From NCBI RefSeq assembly GCF_035994185.1, contig NZ_CP108538.1, positions 2,728,001 through 2,792,000 of the forward strand: a DNA stretch of 64,000 bases, read 5' to 3'. The notes under the pieces were generated by a model. It searched no databases. It saw only the letters and a list, made by a program, of their open reading frames with translations, and was not told the origin of the DNA. Origin of the DNA: Streptomyces sp. NBC_01217 (GTDB lineage: Bacteria; Actinomycetota; Actinomycetes; Streptomycetales; Streptomycetaceae). The position numbers were made by a program, and so were the translations under genes. Shown here in pieces: positions 45,372 through 52,034 of the stretch (the stretch's first letter is position 1; each line of letters begins with the position of its first letter).

Positions 45372-45485
45372 GAGTGTGCCAGTCGTCATCATGCCCGTTC
45401 AGGGGGAAGCCGGTGCAAATCCGGCACTGACCACGCAGCCGTGAACCGTCGTAGGAGACGGTGAGTCGGAATGCCCTGTCCGCGG
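45372..45485 (+). promoter_or_regulatory. Cobalamin riboswitch
   Basis: The B12-box core reads GGGGAAGCCGGTGCAAATCC then GGCACTGACCACGCAGCCGT (45402-45441). A downstream arm GTGAGTCGGAATGCCC (45460-45475) can close the aptamer with the upstream CATGCCC (45390-45396). This matches the conserved core of adenosylcobalamin-sensing leaders. It precedes five coupled genes for B12 capture and uptake and should turn them off when cobalamin is plentiful. Exact ends are approximate. Confidence 0.9.
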
Positions 45486-45563
45486 TCGTGACCGGCTCGC
45501 ACCACCGGAACCCCGGTGGTCGGCACCGTCGAGGAATACGGAGCCGGAGCCTGGTGCGCAAGC

Positions 45564-45598
45564 GTGCCTGTGCCCGGTTCCTCCCACAGGAGAGGCAC
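45564..45598 (+). promoter_or_regulatory. Ribosome-site hairpin (riboswitch expression platform)
   Basis: GTGCC (45564-45568) can pair with GGCAC (45594-45598) and TGTG (45569-45572) with CACA (45585-45588), leaving GGAGA of the ribosome-binding site in a bulge, 8-12 nt before the ATG at 45607. It could block initiation when the aptamer holds cobalamin. Confidence 0.55.
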
Positions 45599-45606
45599 CG
45601 CCCGCC

Positions 45607-46881
45607 ATGACCGTACGCCGCAGCGCAGCAACGCTCGCCGCCACCGCCACCGTGCTCTGTGCGGCCGCTGCCCCGGTCGCGGTGGCGGCGCCGTCCCCGA
45701 CGCCCTCGCCGTCCGTCGCGCTGCCTTCCGGGCTGTACGGCACGAAGGACCCCACGTACGACGGTGTCTGGCGGCAGTCGCTGGCCTTCCTGGCCCAGCG
45801 GGTCGAGGGCGTGACGCCCGCCACGAAGTCGGTGGACTGGCTGATCGCCCAGCAGTGCGCCGACGGCGCCTACGCCGCGTACCGGCCCGATGTCTCCGTG
45901 CCGTGCGACGCGAAGACGGTGCTGGACACCAATGCCACCGCGGCCGCCACCCAGGCGCTCGTCGAGGTGGGCGGGCACCGGGACATCGTGAACAACTCGG
46001 TGCGCTGGCTGAAGTCCGTACAGAACGAGGACGGCGGCTGGGGCTACACCGCGGGCGCGCCCAGTGACGCCAACTCCACCTCCCTGGTGATCGGCGCCCT
46101 CGCCCGGCAGGGGCAGCGGCTCGGAGACATCACGACGCCCGGCGGCAAGACCCCCTACACCCCGCTGCTCGCACTCGCGATCCCGTGCGGCGGCAAGGAC
46201 GGCGGCGCCTTCGCCTACCAGCCCGACAAGGCCGGGAAACTCACCGCCAACGCGGACGCCACCGCGGCCGCCGTGCTCGGCGCGATGGGCAAGGCCCTGG
46301 CCGTCGGGAACAACGCCGCGGGCAAGGCGCCCAGCTGCCGTCCAGGGTCCGCTCCCACGCCGGAGCAGGCCGCCCAGAACGGCGCCCACTTCCTCTCCGG
46401 CGCCCTCGCCGCCACCGGCCATCTGGACCTGGCTCCGATGCCCGGCGCCGAGGACTCCGCCCCGCAGCCCGACTTCGGCAACACCGCGGACGCGGTCGTC
46501 GCGCTGTCCGCCGCGGGGCACCAGGACAAGGCGGCCCCGGCCGTGGCCTGGCTGAAGAAGAACTCCGGGTCCTGGGCCGAGCAGAACGGCCCCGCCGCCT
46601 ACGCGCAGCTGGTCCTGGCCGCGCACGCGACCGGCGCCGACGCCCGCGACTTCGGCGGCGTCGACCTGGTCGACAAGCTGAACGCGACCGGTCCCGCCCC
46701 CGCGGCGATCACGACACCAGACCCGTCCACCGACACCGGATACGTGGCCACGGAGAAGGATCAGGTCCACAGCGGCGACGACGTCATCGGCGGCGTGTGG
46801 TGGTACGTCGGCATCGGCCTGGTCGTCGGTGCGGGCGCCGGTTTCCTGATCAGCGGCCGCCGGAAGAACCAGCAGCTGTGA
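45607..46881 (+). CDS. Secreted, membrane-tethered alpha/alpha-barrel protein, intrinsic factor alpha-domain-like
   Basis: A 424-residue exported protein: signal peptide (residues 1 to about 28), helical barrel (about 38-365), linker and one C-terminal transmembrane helix (VWWYVGIGLVVGAGAGFLIS) ending in basic residues. Repeats such as DWLIAQQCADGAYAAY, VRWLKSVQNEDGGWGYTAG, ANSTSLVIGALARQGQ and NTADAVVALSAAG are prenyltransferase/squalene-oxidase hairpins, but the DxDD and zinc residues of those enzymes are absent. Eukaryotic intrinsic factor and transcobalamin have the same barrel as their alpha domain. Placed first after the B12 riboswitch and next to an ECF transporter, it is best read as an extracellular B12-capture subunit. 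Confidence 0.8.
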   Translation: MTVRRSAATLAATATVLCAAAAPVAVAAPSPTPSPSVALPSGLYGTKDPTYDGVWRQSLAFLAQRVEGVTPATKSVDWLIAQQCADGAYAAYRPDVSVPCDAKTVLDTNATAAATQALVEVGGHRDIVNNSVRWLKSVQNEDGGWGYTAGAPSDANSTSLVIGALARQGQRLGDITTPGGKTPYTPLLALAIPCGGKDGGAFAYQPDKAGKLTANADATAAAVLGAMGKALAVGNNAAGKAPSCRPGSAPTPEQAAQNGAHFLSGALAATGHLDLAPMPGAEDSAPQPDFGNTADAVVALSAAGHQDKAAPAVAWLKKNSGSWAEQNGPAAYAQLVLAAHATGADARDFGGVDLVDKLNATGPAPAAITTPDPSTDTGYVATEKDQVHSGDDVIGGVWWYVGIGLVVGAGAGFLISGRRKNQQL

Positions 46882-47555
46882 GGCGTGCGGGAAGAGCCAC
46901 CGCCCTGCTGATGGTCCTGGGCGCCGTCCTGGCCGTGCTGGGCGCGGGGACGGCCCAGGCGGCCGGCTACCGGTACTGGTCGTTCTGGGAGGGCTCCGGC
47001 ACCGGCTGGACGTACGCCACCCAGGGCCCGTCCCTGGTCCGGCCGGACGACGGCACGGTGCAGGGCTTCCGGTTCTCGGTGAGCGAGGACTCCCAGGACT
47101 CGGCGACGCCGCGCCGCTCCCCCGGCTTCGCGCAGATCTGCGCGGACACCCCGGCGAAGGACGGCACCAAGCGGATCGCGCTGGTCATCGACCCGGGCAC
47201 GGCGTCGGACGCCCCTGCCGGAGAGACACCGCCCGCACTGCGCACGGCGTGCGCGCGGGTCGCCCCGGACGCGAGCACCGCGCAGGCGCTCGCCTCGGTG
47301 GCCAAGCCGCTGCGCTACAGCAGCGACGCGCTGCTGTGCGCCATATCCGGCTATCCGAACTCGGGCTGCGGCGAACAGATTTCGAACGACGGACACGGGA
47401 CACCTGCCGCCTCCGCGCCCGCCTCTGCTTCCGCTTCCGCCTCTGCGTCCTCGGGCGGCTCCGGTGGCGGCCCGTCCGCCGGGGTGCTCGTCGGGGTCGG
47501 CGCCGTACTCCTCCTCGGCACAGCCGCAGTCGTGCAGGCCCGCCGCCGCCGATGA
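46878..47555 (+). CDS. Secreted, membrane-anchored SCO2322-family/DUF4430-like protein (transcobalamin beta-domain-like)
   Basis: A 225-residue exported protein starting at GTG 46878 (4-bp overlap). A signal peptide covers 1 to about 30. The mature start GYRYWSFWEGSGTGWTYATQ and GTVQGFRFSVSE resemble the DUF4430/transcobalamin beta-domain style, with YWS-W and GW-Y pattern. Cys pairs occur in FAQICADTPA and ALLCAISGYPNSGCGEQ. A Ser/Ala linker and a C-terminal transmembrane helix (GVLVGVGAVLLLGTAAVVQA) with a basic tail anchor it. I recall the family as SCO2322-type. With the preceding protein it appears to make a split, two-polypeptide version of intrinsic factor. Confidence 0.78.
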   Translation: MRRAGRATALLMVLGAVLAVLGAGTAQAAGYRYWSFWEGSGTGWTYATQGPSLVRPDDGTVQGFRFSVSEDSQDSATPRRSPGFAQICADTPAKDGTKRIALVIDPGTASDAPAGETPPALRTACARVAPDASTAQALASVAKPLRYSSDALLCAISGYPNSGCGEQISNDGHGTPAASAPASASASASASSGGSGGGPSAGVLVGVGAVLLLGTAAVVQARRRR

Positions 47556-48715
47556 CCGCCCCGACCACCGGCCCGGCCCGGCTGCACCGCCCGCTGCGCG
47601 CCCCCGGGGCGACCCGGAGCAACGCCCTGCCCGCCGGGGCCTGGTGGCTGTGGGCACTGGGTCTGGCCACCGCCGCGTCCCGGACCACCAATCCGCTGCT
47701 GCTCGGGCTGCTGGTGGGGGTGGCCGGCTATGTGGTCGCGGCACGCCGTACGGACGCGCCGTGGGCCCGTTCGTACGGGGCGTTCATCAAGATCGGGCTG
47801 TTCGTCATCGGTGTGCGGCTGGTCTTCTCCGTCTTCCTCGGTTCGCCGATCCCGGGGACGCACGCGGTGTTCACGCTTCCCGAAGTCCCGCTGCCCGACT
47901 GGGCGAAGGGCGTCAGGATCGGTGGCCGGGTCACCGCCGAGCAGCTGGTCTTCGCGCTGTACGACGGCGCGAAGCTGGCCGCCCTGCTGATCTGCGTCGG
48001 TGCGGCGAACTCGCTGGCCAACCCGGCCCGGCTGCTGAAGTCGCTGCCGGGTGCGCTGTACGAGGCGGGGGTCGCCGTCGTCGTCGCGATGACGTTCGCG
48101 CCGAACATGGTCGCCGATGTGGTGCGACTGCGCACCGCGCGTCGGCTGCGGGGCCGTCCGACCGGCGGCATCAAGGCGGTCCTCCAGATCGGACTGCCGG
48201 TCCTGGAGGGCGCGTTGGAACGGTCGGTCGCGGTGGCGGCCTCGATGGACGCGCGCGGATACGGGCGTACGGCTCAGGTCCCGCCCGCCGTCCGGCACAC
48301 CACGAACGTCCTCACGCTCGGCGGGCTGCTCGGGGTGTGCGCGGGTACGTACGGTCTGCTGGCCGCGCAGGGTGCGGTGTACGGGCTGCCGCTGCTGATC
48401 GCCGGGCTCGTCGCCGCGATGGCCGGGCTGCGGCTCGGCGGGGCCCGCTCGGTCCGTACCCGCTACCGGCCCGACCGGTGGGGTGTGCGGGCCTGGCTGG
48501 TGACGGGTTCGGGGGTCGCGGTGGCCGTGGCGATGATCTGGGCGGGCGGTGTCGACGCGGAGGCGCTGCGCCCCGGGGTCGTCCCGCTGGTCACGCCGGT
48601 GCTTCCGCTGTGGCCCGCGGCCGCGGTGCTGACCGGGCTGCTGCCCGCGGTGGTGGCGCCCGTGCCGCCCACGGTGGGCGCCCCGCGTTCCCCGCGTTCC
48701 AAGGAGAGCCAGTGA
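47552..48715 (+). CDS. ECF transporter transmembrane (T) component
   Basis: A 387-residue CbiQ-family membrane protein, 4-bp overlap with the previous gene. Helices include TNPLLLGLLVGVAGYVVAAR and FIKIGLFVIGVRLVFSVFLG. The ATPase-coupling motifs of EcfT are present: MTFAPNMVADVVRLRTARRL and ALERSVAVAASMDARGYG (the Ala-Arg-Gly form). The C-terminal 100 residues add more hydrophobic helices than a minimal T component. It should join the fused ATPase and the S component to import cobalamin. Confidence 0.87.
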   Translation: MTAPTTGPARLHRPLRAPGATRSNALPAGAWWLWALGLATAASRTTNPLLLGLLVGVAGYVVAARRTDAPWARSYGAFIKIGLFVIGVRLVFSVFLGSPIPGTHAVFTLPEVPLPDWAKGVRIGGRVTAEQLVFALYDGAKLAALLICVGAANSLANPARLLKSLPGALYEAGVAVVVAMTFAPNMVADVVRLRTARRLRGRPTGGIKAVLQIGLPVLEGALERSVAVAASMDARGYGRTAQVPPAVRHTTNVLTLGGLLGVCAGTYGLLAAQGAVYGLPLLIAGLVAAMAGLRLGGARSVRTRYRPDRWGVRAWLVTGSGVAVAVAMIWAGGVDAEALRPGVVPLVTPVLPLWPAAAVLTGLLPAVVAPVPPTVGAPRSPRSKESQ

Positions 48716-50442
48716 TCCGGTTCGAGCAGGTCTCGGTGCGGTACGAGGGGGCGCAGCACCCCACCCTCTCCGGGGTCGATCTGACCGTCCCGGAGGGCGA
48801 GTTGGTGCTGCTCGTCGGCCCGTCCGGGGTCGGCAAGTCGACATTGCTGGGCGCCGTGTCCGGTCTCGTGCCGCACTTCACCGGCGGCACGCTGAGCGGC
48901 CGGGTGACGGTCGACGGGCGCGACACCCGCACCCACAAACCGCGCGAACTCGCCGATCTGGTCGGCACGGTGGGCCAGGACCCGCTCTCCCACTTCGTCA
49001 CCGACACCGTCGAGGACGAGCTGGCGTACGGGATGGAGTCGCTGGGTCTCGCCCCCGATGTGATGCGGCGGCGGGTCGAGGAGACCCTCGATCTGCTGGG
49101 TCTGGCGGGTCTGCGCGACCGGCCGATCGCCACGCTCTCCGGCGGACAGCAGCAGCGGGTCGCGATCGGCTCCGTCCTCACCCCGCATCCGAAGGTCCTG
49201 GTCCTCGACGAGCCGACGTCCGCACTGGACCCGGCGGCGGCCGAGGAGGTCCTCGCGGTGCTGCAGCGGCTGGTGCACGACCTGGGTACGACGGTCCTGA
49301 TGGCGGAGCACCGGCTCGAACGGGTGGTGCAGTACGCGGACCAGGTCGTCCTGCTGCCGTCGCCGGGCGCCGCCCCGGTCATGGGCGCGCCCGCGGACGT
49401 CATGGCCGTCTCCCCGGTCCATCCGCCGGTCGTCGCGCTGGGCCGGCTGGCGGGGTGGGAGCCGCTGCCGCTCTCGGTCCGCGACGCGCGGCGCCGGGCG
49501 GCGGACCTGCGCGAGCGGCTGGCGCAGGCACGGCCGCCCGCCGCTCCGTCGCCCATACCGGCCGAAACGGCCGGGGCGGCCGTGACACCGCTGCCCGCCG
49601 CTCCCGTACGGCGCGGCGCCCTCGCCCGGCTGCTGGGCCGGGGCGCGCGGACCGCCGCCGCGGCTCCCGCGCCGGTCGTCGATGTCACGGTCCGGGTCGA
49701 ACGTCTCGGCGTACGGCGTGGGCGTGTCGACGCGCTGCGCCGGGTGACGCTCACCGTCTCCCCCGGTGAGACCGTCGCCCTGATGGGACGCAACGGGGCG
49801 GGCAAGTCCACTCTGCTGGCCACGCTCGTCGGCATGGTCGAGCCCACCGCGGGCACCGTCCTCGTCGGCGGCCGGATCCCGCACCGTACGCAGCCGCGCG
49901 AGATGGTGCGCCGGGTCGGGCTCGTACCGCAGGAACCACGAGATCTGCTGTACGCGGACACCGTCGCCGCCGAGTGCGCCGCGGCCGACGCCGACGCGGG
50001 CGCCGCCGCGGGCAGCTGCCGGGCCCTGGTCTCCGAGCTGCTGCCCGGCGTACCGGACGACACCCATCCCCGTGATCTCTCCGAGGGCCAGCGGCTCGCG
50101 CTCGCGCTGGCCGTCGTGCTCACCGCGAGGCCCCCGTTGCTGCTTCTGGACGAGCCGACCCGTGGCCTGGACTACGCGGCGAAGGCCCGGCTGGTCGGGG
50201 TGCTCCGCGGCCTCGCGGCCGAGGGTCATGCGATCGTCCTGGCCACGCACGACGTGGAGCTCGCCGCCGAGCTGGCGCACCGGGTGGTGATCCTCGCCGA
50301 CGGGGAGGTCGTCGCGGACGGGGAGACCCGGCAGGTGGTGGTCTCCTCCCCGGCGTTCGCCCCGCAGACCGCGAAGATCCTCGCCCCGCAGGAGTGGCTG
50401 ACCGTGACGCAGGTGCGCGGCGCGCTGGGAGCCGCGTCATGA
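48712..50442 (+). CDS. ECF transporter fused double ATPase (A-A')
   Basis: A 576-residue protein with two ABC ATPase domains in one chain. Domain one (1 to about 225) has GPSGVGKST, LSGGQQQRVAIGS and VLVLDEPTSALDP; domain two (about 325-540) has GRNGAGKST, LSEGQRLALALAVVL and LLLLDEPTRGLD. The linker of about 100 residues is Ala/Pro-rich. The degenerate signature (LSEGQ) in the second domain implies one stronger and one weaker ATP site. Starts at GTG 48712 after AAGGAGAG and overlaps its neighbours by 4 bp. Confidence 0.9.
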   Translation: MIRFEQVSVRYEGAQHPTLSGVDLTVPEGELVLLVGPSGVGKSTLLGAVSGLVPHFTGGTLSGRVTVDGRDTRTHKPRELADLVGTVGQDPLSHFVTDTVEDELAYGMESLGLAPDVMRRRVEETLDLLGLAGLRDRPIATLSGGQQQRVAIGSVLTPHPKVLVLDEPTSALDPAAAEEVLAVLQRLVHDLGTTVLMAEHRLERVVQYADQVVLLPSPGAAPVMGAPADVMAVSPVHPPVVALGRLAGWEPLPLSVRDARRRAADLRERLAQARPPAAPSPIPAETAGAAVTPLPAAPVRRGALARLLGRGARTAAAAPAPVVDVTVRVERLGVRRGRVDALRRVTLTVSPGETVALMGRNGAGKSTLLATLVGMVEPTAGTVLVGGRIPHRTQPREMVRRVGLVPQEPRDLLYADTVAAECAAADADAGAAAGSCRALVSELLPGVPDDTHPRDLSEGQRLALALAVVLTARPPLLLLDEPTRGLDYAAKARLVGVLRGLAAEGHAIVLATHDVELAAELAHRVVILADGEVVADGETRQVVVSSPAFAPQTAKILAPQEWLTVTQVRGALGAAS

Positions 50443-51272
50443 GCGCAAGGGGCACGGTCGGGCGCCGGACACGGCCGGTGCGCCTCGGGCCGCGTGCGAT
50501 CGCCGCGCTCGTCCTCATCAGTGCGATCGGTGTGGTCGCGTTCGGCTGGCCGCTGCTGGCCGGTGCGGACTCCGGTCTGGCGCACTCCGAGGATGCGCCG
50601 TGGCTGTTCGCCGCGCTGCTGCCGCTGCTGGTGGGTGTGGTCGTCGCGATGATCGGGGACTCCGGTCTCGACGCGAAGGCGGTGGCGATGCTGGGCGTGC
50701 TGGCCGCGGTCGGCGCCGCGCTGCGTCCGCTGGGGGCGGGCACGGCGGGCCTGGAGCCGATGTTCTTCCTGATGGTGCTGAGCGGCCGGGTGCTCGGACC
50801 GGGCTTCGGCTTCGTGCTCGGCTCGGTGACGATGTTCGCGTCCGCGCTGCTCACCGGTGGGGTGGGGCCGTGGATGCCGTTCCAGATGCTGTCGATGGGC
50901 TGGTTCGCGATGGGCGCGGGCCTGCTGCCGGGCCCGGACCGGCTGCGCGGGCGGGCCGAGCTGCTGATGCTCGCGGTGTACGGGTTCGTGGCGTCCTTCG
51001 CGTACGGCACGGTGATGAACCTGTACGGATGGACGGTGGTGCCCCCGGCCGGCTCGGGGATCTCGTTCCACGCGGGTGATCCCCTGGCGGAGAACCTGGT
51101 GCGCTTCCTGGCCTACTGCACGGCCACGTCGCTCGGCTGGGACCTGGGCCGGGCCGCGCTCACCCTGGTGCTGACCCTGACCGTCGGCGCGACGCTGCTG
51201 AAGGCACTGCGCCGGGCCACGCGCCGCGCCGCCTTCGAGGCCCAGGTCACATTCGACGCCCCCGGCGAGTGA
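50439..51272 (+). CDS. ECF transporter substrate-specific (S) component, cobalamin-type
   Basis: A 277-residue membrane protein with about six helices. The ECF S-component region is LDAKAVAMLGVLAAVGAALR, LGPGFGFVLGSVTMFASALL and FQMLSMGWFAMGAGLLPG, the Gly-Phe-Gly-Phe and S-component packing motifs. I assign it to the CbrT-type cobalamin group from the riboswitch and context. ATG 50439 overlaps the fused ATPase stop. It is the last gene of the operon. Confidence 0.82.
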   Translation: MSARGTVGRRTRPVRLGPRAIAALVLISAIGVVAFGWPLLAGADSGLAHSEDAPWLFAALLPLLVGVVVAMIGDSGLDAKAVAMLGVLAAVGAALRPLGAGTAGLEPMFFLMVLSGRVLGPGFGFVLGSVTMFASALLTGGVGPWMPFQMLSMGWFAMGAGLLPGPDRLRGRAELLMLAVYGFVASFAYGTVMNLYGWTVVPPAGSGISFHAGDPLAENLVRFLAYCTATSLGWDLGRAALTLVLTLTVGATLLKALRRATRRAAFEAQVTFDAPGE

Positions 51273-51593: not shown

Positions 51594-52034
51594 GTGTCGT
51601 TCGCCCGCAGCATCCTCGCCCTGCCCCGCACCGCCCGCCGCAAGTCCGTCGTCGCCGGTACCGCCGTACTCCTCGGCGCCACCGGCCTGGGCCTCGGCGT
51701 CACCCCGGCCATGGCCGCACCGGCCACCGCGCCGACCGGCGTCGCGGCGAGCGCGCAGGACACGGCGAAGTCGATGATCGGCAACGCCGCGCAGTACCAG
51801 TGCTTCAGCAACATCGTCCAGCACGAGAGCGGCTGGAACCCCAGCGCGACCAACGCCTCGTCCGGCGCCTACGGCCTCGTCCAGGCCCTGCCCGGCTCGA
51901 AGATGGCCTCGGCCGGCTCCGACTGGCGGACCAATCCCTCGACCCAGATCAAGTGGGGCATGGACTACATGAACTCCCGCTACGGCAGCCCGTGCGCCGC
52001 CTGGTCGTTCTGGCAGACCAACCACTGGTACTGA
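51594..52034 (+). CDS. Small secreted lytic transglycosylase (SLT fold)
   Basis: A 146-residue exported protein. A signal peptide (residues 1 to about 41, VLLGATGLGLGVTPAMAA) precedes a compact SLT/goose-lysozyme-like domain: NIVQHESGWNPSATNASSGA with the catalytic Glu, YGLVQALPGSKMASAG and IKWGMDYMNSRYGSPCAAWS. The ending WQTNHWY is the usual end of this family. It lacks the LysM or peptidoglycan-binding domain of longer relatives. It should cleave peptidoglycan at the cell surface. A strong terminator follows 27 bp after the stop. Confidence 0.87.
   Translation: MSFARSILALPRTARRKSVVAGTAVLLGATGLGLGVTPAMAAPATAPTGVAASAQDTAKSMIGNAAQYQCFSNIVQHESGWNPSATNASSGAYGLVQALPGSKMASAGSDWRTNPSTQIKWGMDYMNSRYGSPCAAWSFWQTNHWY

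Follow-up and report, generated by a model that had tools for sequence, protein, structure and literature searches.

The window analysed here, a stretch of 64,000 nucleotides of the Streptomyces sp. NBC_01217 genome (contig NZ_CP108538.1, positions 2,728,001 to 2,792,000 of the forward strand; window coordinates below count from its first letter), contains a cobalamin riboswitch followed by five genes, of which the first two code for secreted proteins of the SCO2321 and SCO2322 families and the other three for an importer of the energy-coupling factor (ECF) type. We propose, with a probability of about 0.65, that this is an operon of the B12 regulon that codes for a split and doubly permuted transcobalamin-like surface trap for cobalamin or other corrinoids, which feeds the dedicated ECF importer. 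According to this proposal the riboswitch would permit expression when coenzyme B12 is low inside the cell, the sign of the regulation being taken from what is known of this riboswitch class. Two secreted and tail-anchored ectodomains, an alpha/alpha toroid and a beta-grasp domain of the SLBB/DUF4430 type, would stand in contact with each other outside the membrane, corresponding, each from its own gene, to the two domains between which transcobalamin and intrinsic factor enclose B12. Of the two, the beta domain would be the conserved core and the constant partner, and the toroid, in the loci that have it, probably covers the corrinoid from the opposite side. The corrinoid would then go to the substrate-binding (S) component, with the T/A-A' module carrying out its import. 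We infer a corrinoid ligand from the riboswitch, the ECF context, the toroid fold and a proposal made for related proteins by Burroughs 2007 (PMC1796856). The NCBIfam names of the two families, SCO2321 (NF053823) and SCO2322 (NF040672), carry no function, and the pair is currently annotated as a 'prenyltransferase/squalene oxidase repeat' protein and a 'SCO2322 family' protein.

The riboswitch family RF00174 is the sole Rfam family with a match that reaches its gathering score within the window (E of 9e-9 with 501 bases as the search space), and the five open reading frames behind it, all on the plus strand, overlap by 4 bp at each of the four junctions (GTGA, ATGA, GTGA and ATGA, in this order). 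The T, A, A' and S components are encoded together (Table 1), the T component scoring below the cut-off of its family but being conserved in its place, since a T homologue was found in 56 of the 64 loci described below. A first-pass annotation of this stretch had described a B12 riboswitch ahead of the operon, coupling of the genes by 4-bp overlaps, and T, fused A-A' and S components, and all three statements were confirmed. As read by eye, the SCO2321 and the SCO2322 protein both begin with what resembles a signal peptide and carry a hydrophobic segment near the C-terminus.

Table 1. Features of the riboswitch-led operon, in window coordinates.
Feature	Positions	Strand	Evidence
Cobalamin riboswitch aptamer RF00174, compact form	45403..45476	+	40.1 bits against a gathering score of 31.5; model positions 45-169
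Remaining leader, probable expression platform	45477..45606	+	Leader alignment of 8 loci
Toroid half: secreted, predicted alpha/alpha toroid with C-terminal hydrophobic anchor, SCO2321 family, 424 amino acids	45607..46881	+	NF053823
Beta half: secreted, C-terminal hydrophobic anchor, SCO2322 family, 225 amino acids, ectodomain about residues 30-165	46878..47555	+	NF040672
Beta sub-part YRYWSFW ... QGFRFSV, second in relatives of the other order, first here	46968..47081	+	Aligns to canonical columns 69-110
Beta sub-part KRIALVID ... GYPNSGC, first in relatives of the other order, second here	47169..47372	+	Rotation scan
ECF T component, 387 amino acids	47552..48715	+	CbiQ 19.3 bits, E 9e-4, under the 25-bit cut-off
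Fused ECF A-A' ATPase, 576 amino acids	48712..50442	+	ABC_tran 197.9 bits, two stretches
ECF S (substrate-binding) component, 277 amino acids	50439..51272	+	PF12822 31.7 bits against a cut-off of 30.7

The riboswitch accompanies these genes well beyond the host. SCO2322 matches were found in 39 of 246 genomes drawn across the phylum (9 over the cut-off) and in 162 of 394 genomes drawn from the class (135 over the cut-off), and SCO2321 matches in 187 of the latter (39 over the cut-off). By our own coordinate tally, which counted RF00174 matches up to about 3 kb upstream on the operon's own strand and had no shuffled control, a riboswitch precedes the operon in 31 of 38 genomes (16 over the gathering score), these being every phylum-draw genome with an SCO2322 match except the host. 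The same tally gave 23 of 26 class genomes (10 over the gathering score) that had been picked for family diversity out of the 162; genome G459 (G and L numbers are our handles for genomes and loci) was counted by its non-permuted operon. The riboswitch was missing in seven of the 38, namely G107, G193, G023, G225 and G022 as well as G242 and G002, where a contig end is nearby, and in G478, G356 and G500 of the 26. Given that a multi-megabase genome holds 0 to 9 riboswitch matches, the association is far beyond chance. In addition, all five of the operons with a DUF4430 domain that were checked, out of 42 genomes with a match to its Pfam model PF14478, have RF00174 within about 3.5 kb upstream. 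Around SCO2322-type matches 64 loci were fetched, 37 from the phylum draw and 27 from the class draw, with G058 and G108 excluded; ECF genes were found in 57 of them and a toroid gene in 43, both counts being lower bounds because a separate SCO2321 scan gave weak toroid matches at L059 and at L151, and because some of the contigs end close by. The system is real and conserved, and its interpretation is not refuted by the case that the first-pass annotation had named for this, genomes in which the two genes consistently stand apart from B12 riboswitches or ECF genes.

In the leader itself, the aptamer core motif is visible in the alignment for six of the seven other leaders of the same genus; the exception is G171, whose leader slice starts inside its riboswitch match so that its row is uninformative about the core. 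Around GGGGGAAGCCGGTGCAA the core is still recognisable, partly decayed, in the leaders of G107, G193 and G023. The predicted fold of 45396-45625 showed no significant excess of stability (z of -1.58). Downstream of the aptamer, at 45521-45545 on the plus strand, the stretch CGGCACCGTCGAGG.ATACGGAGCC is conserved in most of the eight aligned leader rows and is perhaps part of the expression platform.

The first protein is a member of the SCO2321 family (564.2 bits against a cut-off of 300), matches the Pfam family SQHop_cyclase_C with 35.4 bits, and was modelled by AlphaFold2 as an alpha/alpha toroid with a mean predicted local distance difference test score (pLDDT) of 89.3 and a predicted template-modelling score (pTM) of 0.89. 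When this model was searched with Foldseek, terpene cyclases came first and human transcobalamin (2bb5) was found at rank 20 with an E of 2.7e-4 and TM scores of 0.43 and 0.38. The predicted toroid is thus present in the SCO2321 protein, yet the fold is common to many other families. A profile of toroids in the non-Streptomyces order gave a hint of intrinsic factor in the PDB (E of 0.32, residues 36-123 aligned to profile positions 54-144), and the profile of the permuted toroids matched no intrinsic factor at an E of 1 or less.

The second protein is a member of the SCO2322 family (226.2 bits against a cut-off of 85), with a GPS-CTERM match of 24.4 bits that stays under the cut-off of 28; SCO2322 proteins are also shown under a newer Pfam family, PF28005. 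In genomes that do not belong to the permuted lineage, a match of the SCO2322 model is as a rule confined to one half of the domain, and in L035, L040 and L150 the model matches both halves in reversed order, the second piece in L150 being weak. We aligned 30 proteins that have the other half in front, all of which match NF040672 at an E of 0.01 or less, and refer to them as canonical. In a rotation scan against the canonical profile, the Streptomyces-type domain aligned over 41 of 113 columns unrotated (score 86.5) and over 97 of 113 when the cut fell in the linker (score 137), where the scan forms a plateau. With its halves exchanged it aligned over 99 columns with a P of 2.6e-24, as against 41 columns in the unexchanged order. 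Moreover, four cysteines stand in the rotated places in 120 of 120 Streptomyces proteins, the pattern fits 18 of the 30 canonical proteins, and in 27 of the 29 permuted loci four cysteines lie within the beta domain. It is therefore likely, judging from these alignments, that the SCO2322 beta domain is circularly permuted relative to its homologues in other Actinomycetota. Circular permutation of a beta-grasp domain is known from the UFD domain of E1.

The AlphaFold2 model of the beta protein (pLDDT 91.8, pTM 0.87) has strands at 3-11 and 33-42, a helix at 57-60, strands at 71-78 and 95-101, a helix at 107-114 and strands at 118-120 and 126-129. Read from residue 71 and wrapped to the start, this gives two strands, a helix, short strands and further strands, a predicted order consistent with published accounts of transcobalamin-type SLBB domains (PMC1796856, PMC1949818), which run S1-S2-helix-inserted strands-S3-S4-S5 (PMC1949818). 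Since the predicted order departs from this linear order and is compatible with a rotation of it, we call the SCO2322 protein a permuted relative of these domains and not a member. Two loci, L143 and L144 (genomes G356 and G500, family f77), have a permuted SCO2322-type domain with only two of the four cysteines and no match to a toroid, ECF S, ECF T or RF00174 nearby; there the domain is possibly put to a different use.

The toroid is apparently permuted as well. An alignment rule could class 46 toroids, into 17 that are colinear, meaning that the SCO2321 profile aligns in one piece, and 29 that are offset, with the C-terminal repeat first. In the toroid rotation scan the alignment rose from 190 columns and a score of 293 unrotated to 283 columns and 413 at k=240, with a single peak and no repeat periodicity, which suggests that the SCO2321 toroid is circularly permuted relative to the toroids of homologous operons in other Actinomycetota. 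All but one of the 17 colinear toroids adjoin a permuted beta protein, and all 29 offset toroids adjoin a canonical or DUF4430-type one. The exception is L072 (G194), where a toroid of the Streptomyces order stands next to a non-permuted beta protein; it rules out a perfect concordance of the two permutations and points to an independent permutation of the toroid, the order of which would have changed more than once. An argument that the Streptomyces toroid order is the derived one, based on the other order in DUF4430 operons, was judged weak; those operons supply 4 of the 29 offset toroids, and in them several repeats match the SCO2321 profile at once. We also considered whether the permutation is tied to membrane anchoring of the toroid, and rejected this: under a rough hydropathy cut, both classes include toroids with a membrane-like C-terminus, namely 10 of the 29 offset and 10 of the 17 colinear ones. 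The tails of the toroids of L046 and L052 are presumably SLH-like.

On the beta-domain tree, 44 of 45 permuted tips form one clade that holds no other tips (support 0.82), with two changes of order. On the transporter tree, built from A-A' and S, permuted and canonical operons interleave with six changes of order, so that a single origin of the permutation is unsupported there. The conflict between the two trees suggests either exchange of the capture module or low resolution. It is a tentative idea, which we consider doubtful, that a single operon lineage saw the permutation of both halves, each with its own gene, as a co-evolved change in two partners that share one ligand-binding interface, whereby the moved chain ends would let the pair stand differently on the membrane and present the corrinoid to the dedicated S component. 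Such joint permutation of partner domains would, if true, be unusual in protein evolution.

The link to transcobalamin runs through DUF4430. The canonical beta profile aligned collinearly to a profile of 30 Actinomycetota DUF4430 domains over 78 columns with a P of 7.6e-5, and with its halves exchanged over only 38 columns (score 22.1). A profile that merged the canonical and the re-ordered permuted proteins aligned over 78 columns with a P of 2.6e-6 and a score of 36.7, the maximum in 100 column shuffles being 19.7, so that the similarity to DUF4430, once the permuted proteins are rotated, extends over the whole domain. When the DUF4430 profile was in turn searched against the PDB, it matched 3u7z (E of 0.0013), transcobalamin-1 (0.053) and transcobalamin-2 (0.16), with one unrelated protein between them; the canonical beta profile itself matched none of these three. 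A homology chain from SCO2322 over DUF4430 to the transcobalamin beta domain is thus plausible, its last links being weak at the level of sequence. Gene context supports the step to DUF4430, because 11 of 13 loci fetched for their PF14478 matches have an ECF-type ATPase match and 6 of 13 have a toroid match. In the operon at L073 a PF14478 match (G040:C203:4034-4207, minus strand) lies between the riboswitch and the toroid and a canonical SCO2322-like gene is also present; by these matches the operon holds two beta-type domains.

Several results weigh against the proposal of a transcobalamin-like trap for corrinoids. PF14478 matched neither the beta protein of the window nor any of 30 relatives in a Pfam search, Foldseek found no significant PDB match for the confident beta model, and in a second search, by VIA, this model did not match transcobalamin. 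The trimmed canonical profile scored 24.0 against DUF4430 with a maximum of 20.9 in 150 column shuffles, which makes the homology only moderate. Rotation of the permuted profile extended its alignment to DUF4430 from 42 to 78 columns while the score went only from 29.3 to 29.7, and exchange of its halves took the score from 28.4 to 27.7. The nearest folds of the toroid are terpene cyclases, with transcobalamin as far down as rank 20, and transcobalamin is not among the 50 VIA matches listed for the toroid model. A profile of 42 S homologues found no ECF protein in the PDB at an E of 10 or less, and no relative of the window's S component was found among solved structures. No RF00174 was found at the operon in G107, G193 and G023, which belong to the same genus, nor in G225, G022, G478, G356 and G500. 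The host has cobN and cbiB and so may make its own B12. Five of the 29 permuted loci lack an ECF gene in the fetched stretch. Finally, no toroid was detected in 12 of the 29 permuted loci, or in 10 of the 24 of these that have ECF genes, and 11 of the 12 genomes concerned gave no SCO2321 toroid match when the four best candidates per genome were scored, the same draw of 394 genomes being assumed.

The empty fold searches with the beta protein may be explained by the argument that an aligner which follows chain order would miss a circular permutant, and it is likely because of the permutation that the likeness to DUF4430 stays hidden from Pfam and fold searches. The first-pass description of the second protein as DUF4430-like is not confirmed when taken directly, and the likeness is seen over the whole domain only after exchange of the halves, and the comparison of its predicted fold with the transcobalamin beta domain, which that annotation had named as a check, formally went against it. 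Its broader claim of a split intrinsic-factor-like pair with a dedicated ECF importer in the B12 regulon is supported across Actinomycetota, except that the arrangement is not 'exactly' that of the animal proteins, both chains being permuted.

The toroid-free loci show that the toroid is not indispensable and that the two-piece clamp is not obligatory. They also favor an explanation that we regard as possible but unlikely: the beta protein alone would present B12 to the ECF importer and the toroid would be an accessory, such as a stabiliser, wall spacer or scavenger, with no two-sided clamp. In addition to the 12 permuted loci, the toroid went undetected in 9 of 35 other loci (its presence being a lower bound in both), and in the toroid-free genomes G062, G285 and G489 the riboswitch lies only about 0.2-0.3 kb from the beta-domain match. 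Against this, wherever a permuted locus has a toroid gene, that of the window included, this gene lies directly 5' of the beta gene, and in the host genus both families are over the cut-off in 39 of the 40 genomes drawn whereas the remaining one, G518, has neither (SCO2322 unmatched, SCO2321 with weak matches only, the best E being 2.8e-6). Furthermore, the rough hydropathy cut shows no membrane-like C-terminus for 19 of the 29 offset toroids and for 7 of the 17 colinear ones, so that these would have to be held by a partner or by the wall.

It is improbable that the operon imports another substrate that is tied to B12 status, for instance cobalt ions, a base that serves as lower ligand, or a compound akin to flavins. 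Cobalt transporters, too, are found under the control of B12 riboswitches, and of the 42 aligned S homologues 10 match PF07155, the model of riboflavin S components, the other 32 matching PF12822. However, neither CbiM nor CbiN is listed among the Pfam matches of the five operon proteins, and the DUF4430-type domain, ECF genes and the B12 riboswitch occur together in distant Actinomycetota. B12 or its precursors were also the substrates that Burroughs 2007 (PMC1796856) arrived at from an independent sample.

That the toroid is an extracellular enzyme, a relative of terpene cyclases or glycosidases, with the beta protein as its anchor and the control by B12 incidental, is very improbable. The closest folds and profiles of the toroid are indeed squalene-hopene and drimenyl diphosphate cyclases, but the D.DD string, which is the acid motif of terpene cyclases, is absent from the toroid of the window and from 120 of its 121 closest family members, the sole match (P0093) lying in the tail before the membrane segment; the linkage to an ECF importer and a riboswitch also argues against an enzyme. 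On this motif we rejected a squalene-hopene or terpene cyclase identity, in agreement with the first-pass description of an alpha/alpha barrel without cyclase residues. In wider sets D.DD occurs in 2 of 28 colinear toroids, both times in the tail, and in 5 of 29 offset ones. One distant toroid, in the DUF4430 operon L158 (582-1976, minus strand), has the string DPDDTG inside a repeat, which we take to resemble the cyclase acid motif and which is a point in favor of an enzyme. Equally hard to sustain is the suspicion that similar repeats or misread gene boundaries merely simulate the permutations. It could appeal to the similar repeats of toroids, to the multiple repeat matches in DUF4430 operons and to the interleaving on the transporter tree. 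Against it, both rotation scans yield a single optimum at which coverage is nearly complete, the permuted beta domains are nearly one clade and the rotated cysteine order is kept.

Among known systems, the closest are the SLBB/DUF4430 proteins for which Burroughs 2007 (PMC1796856) proposed B12 scavenging, together with a bacterial origin of the animal B12 carriers. Those proteins, found mainly in low-GC Gram-positives and planctomycetes, are likewise secreted and surface-tethered, combine a toroid with a beta-grasp domain, often in one fused chain, and have CbiO/CbiQ-like operon partners. The proteins described here differ from them in that the two halves are separately encoded, DUF4430 is undetected, both chains are permuted, and the riboswitch association was counted. 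With transcobalamin, intrinsic factor and haptocorrin they share the predicted toroid fold and, through the profile chain, a probable relative of the beta domain; unlike the single chain of transcobalamin and intrinsic factor, the pair is encoded by two genes with a 4-bp overlap, is permuted and membrane-anchored, and has a putative ligand. ECF-CbrT of Lactobacillus delbrueckii is a proven cobalamin importer of the ECF type that uses a shared ECF module (PMC5997447), whereas the importer here is dedicated, has a fused A-A' and has an S component without detectable sequence relation to any ECF protein in the PDB. The first-pass comparison with a Gram-negative outer-membrane B12 receptor is a loose one, and a closer functional parallel would be surface capture lipoproteins of the BtuG type. 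BtuG of Bacteroides is a proven surface-exposed B12 catcher that serves a transporter, a role proposed here for the pair, and is a beta-propeller lipoprotein on the Gram-negative outer membrane with a fold unrelated to the window proteins (PMC6143338).

In a literature search that left most subscription papers outside, we recognised none on SCO2321 or SCO2322 in B12 capture or on permuted SLBB domains, and for the PDB codes 8pak and 8paj only unrelated papers came up. As far as checked, therefore, the general kind of system was predicted in 2007 and the separately encoded, doubly permuted form is new. How Gram-positives, which have no outer membrane, concentrate scarce B12 at the surface is poorly understood, and the pair, which is widespread in the genus and has relatives in distant Actinomycetota, bears on this question. 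The transcobalamin-like reading would give two anonymous families a function that can be tested, would show why domain libraries missed the link, and would extend the 2007 proposal on the origin of the animal carriers.

The host genome (9.03 Mb) has four RF00174 sites, and the three outside this operon adjoin genes matching metE, cbiB-cobN, and nrdA with an nrdB-like gene; a B12 riboswitch is known for metE of Streptomyces (PMC4365011). The riboswitch-led metE of the host (G000:C1:8532581-8533610; L055 and L168) is an N-terminal fragment that covers positions 2-206 of the 754 of TIGR01371 in a frame of 386 amino acids. Since this fragment is the only metE match in the genome and metH is full length (1413.6 bits), the strain may, to judge from its genes, rely on cobalamin for methionine. 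Some genomes of the same genus have a second operon with the non-permuted beta type, as at L059 (G171) and at L153 and L154 (G459); in G459 it is the non-permuted operon (L153) that comes with ECF genes and a riboswitch, neither of which was found near the permuted pair (L154). In the window, the operon is closely followed, at 51594-52034 on the plus strand, by a gene for a small secreted protein, which we take from its sequence to resemble a lytic transglycosylase.

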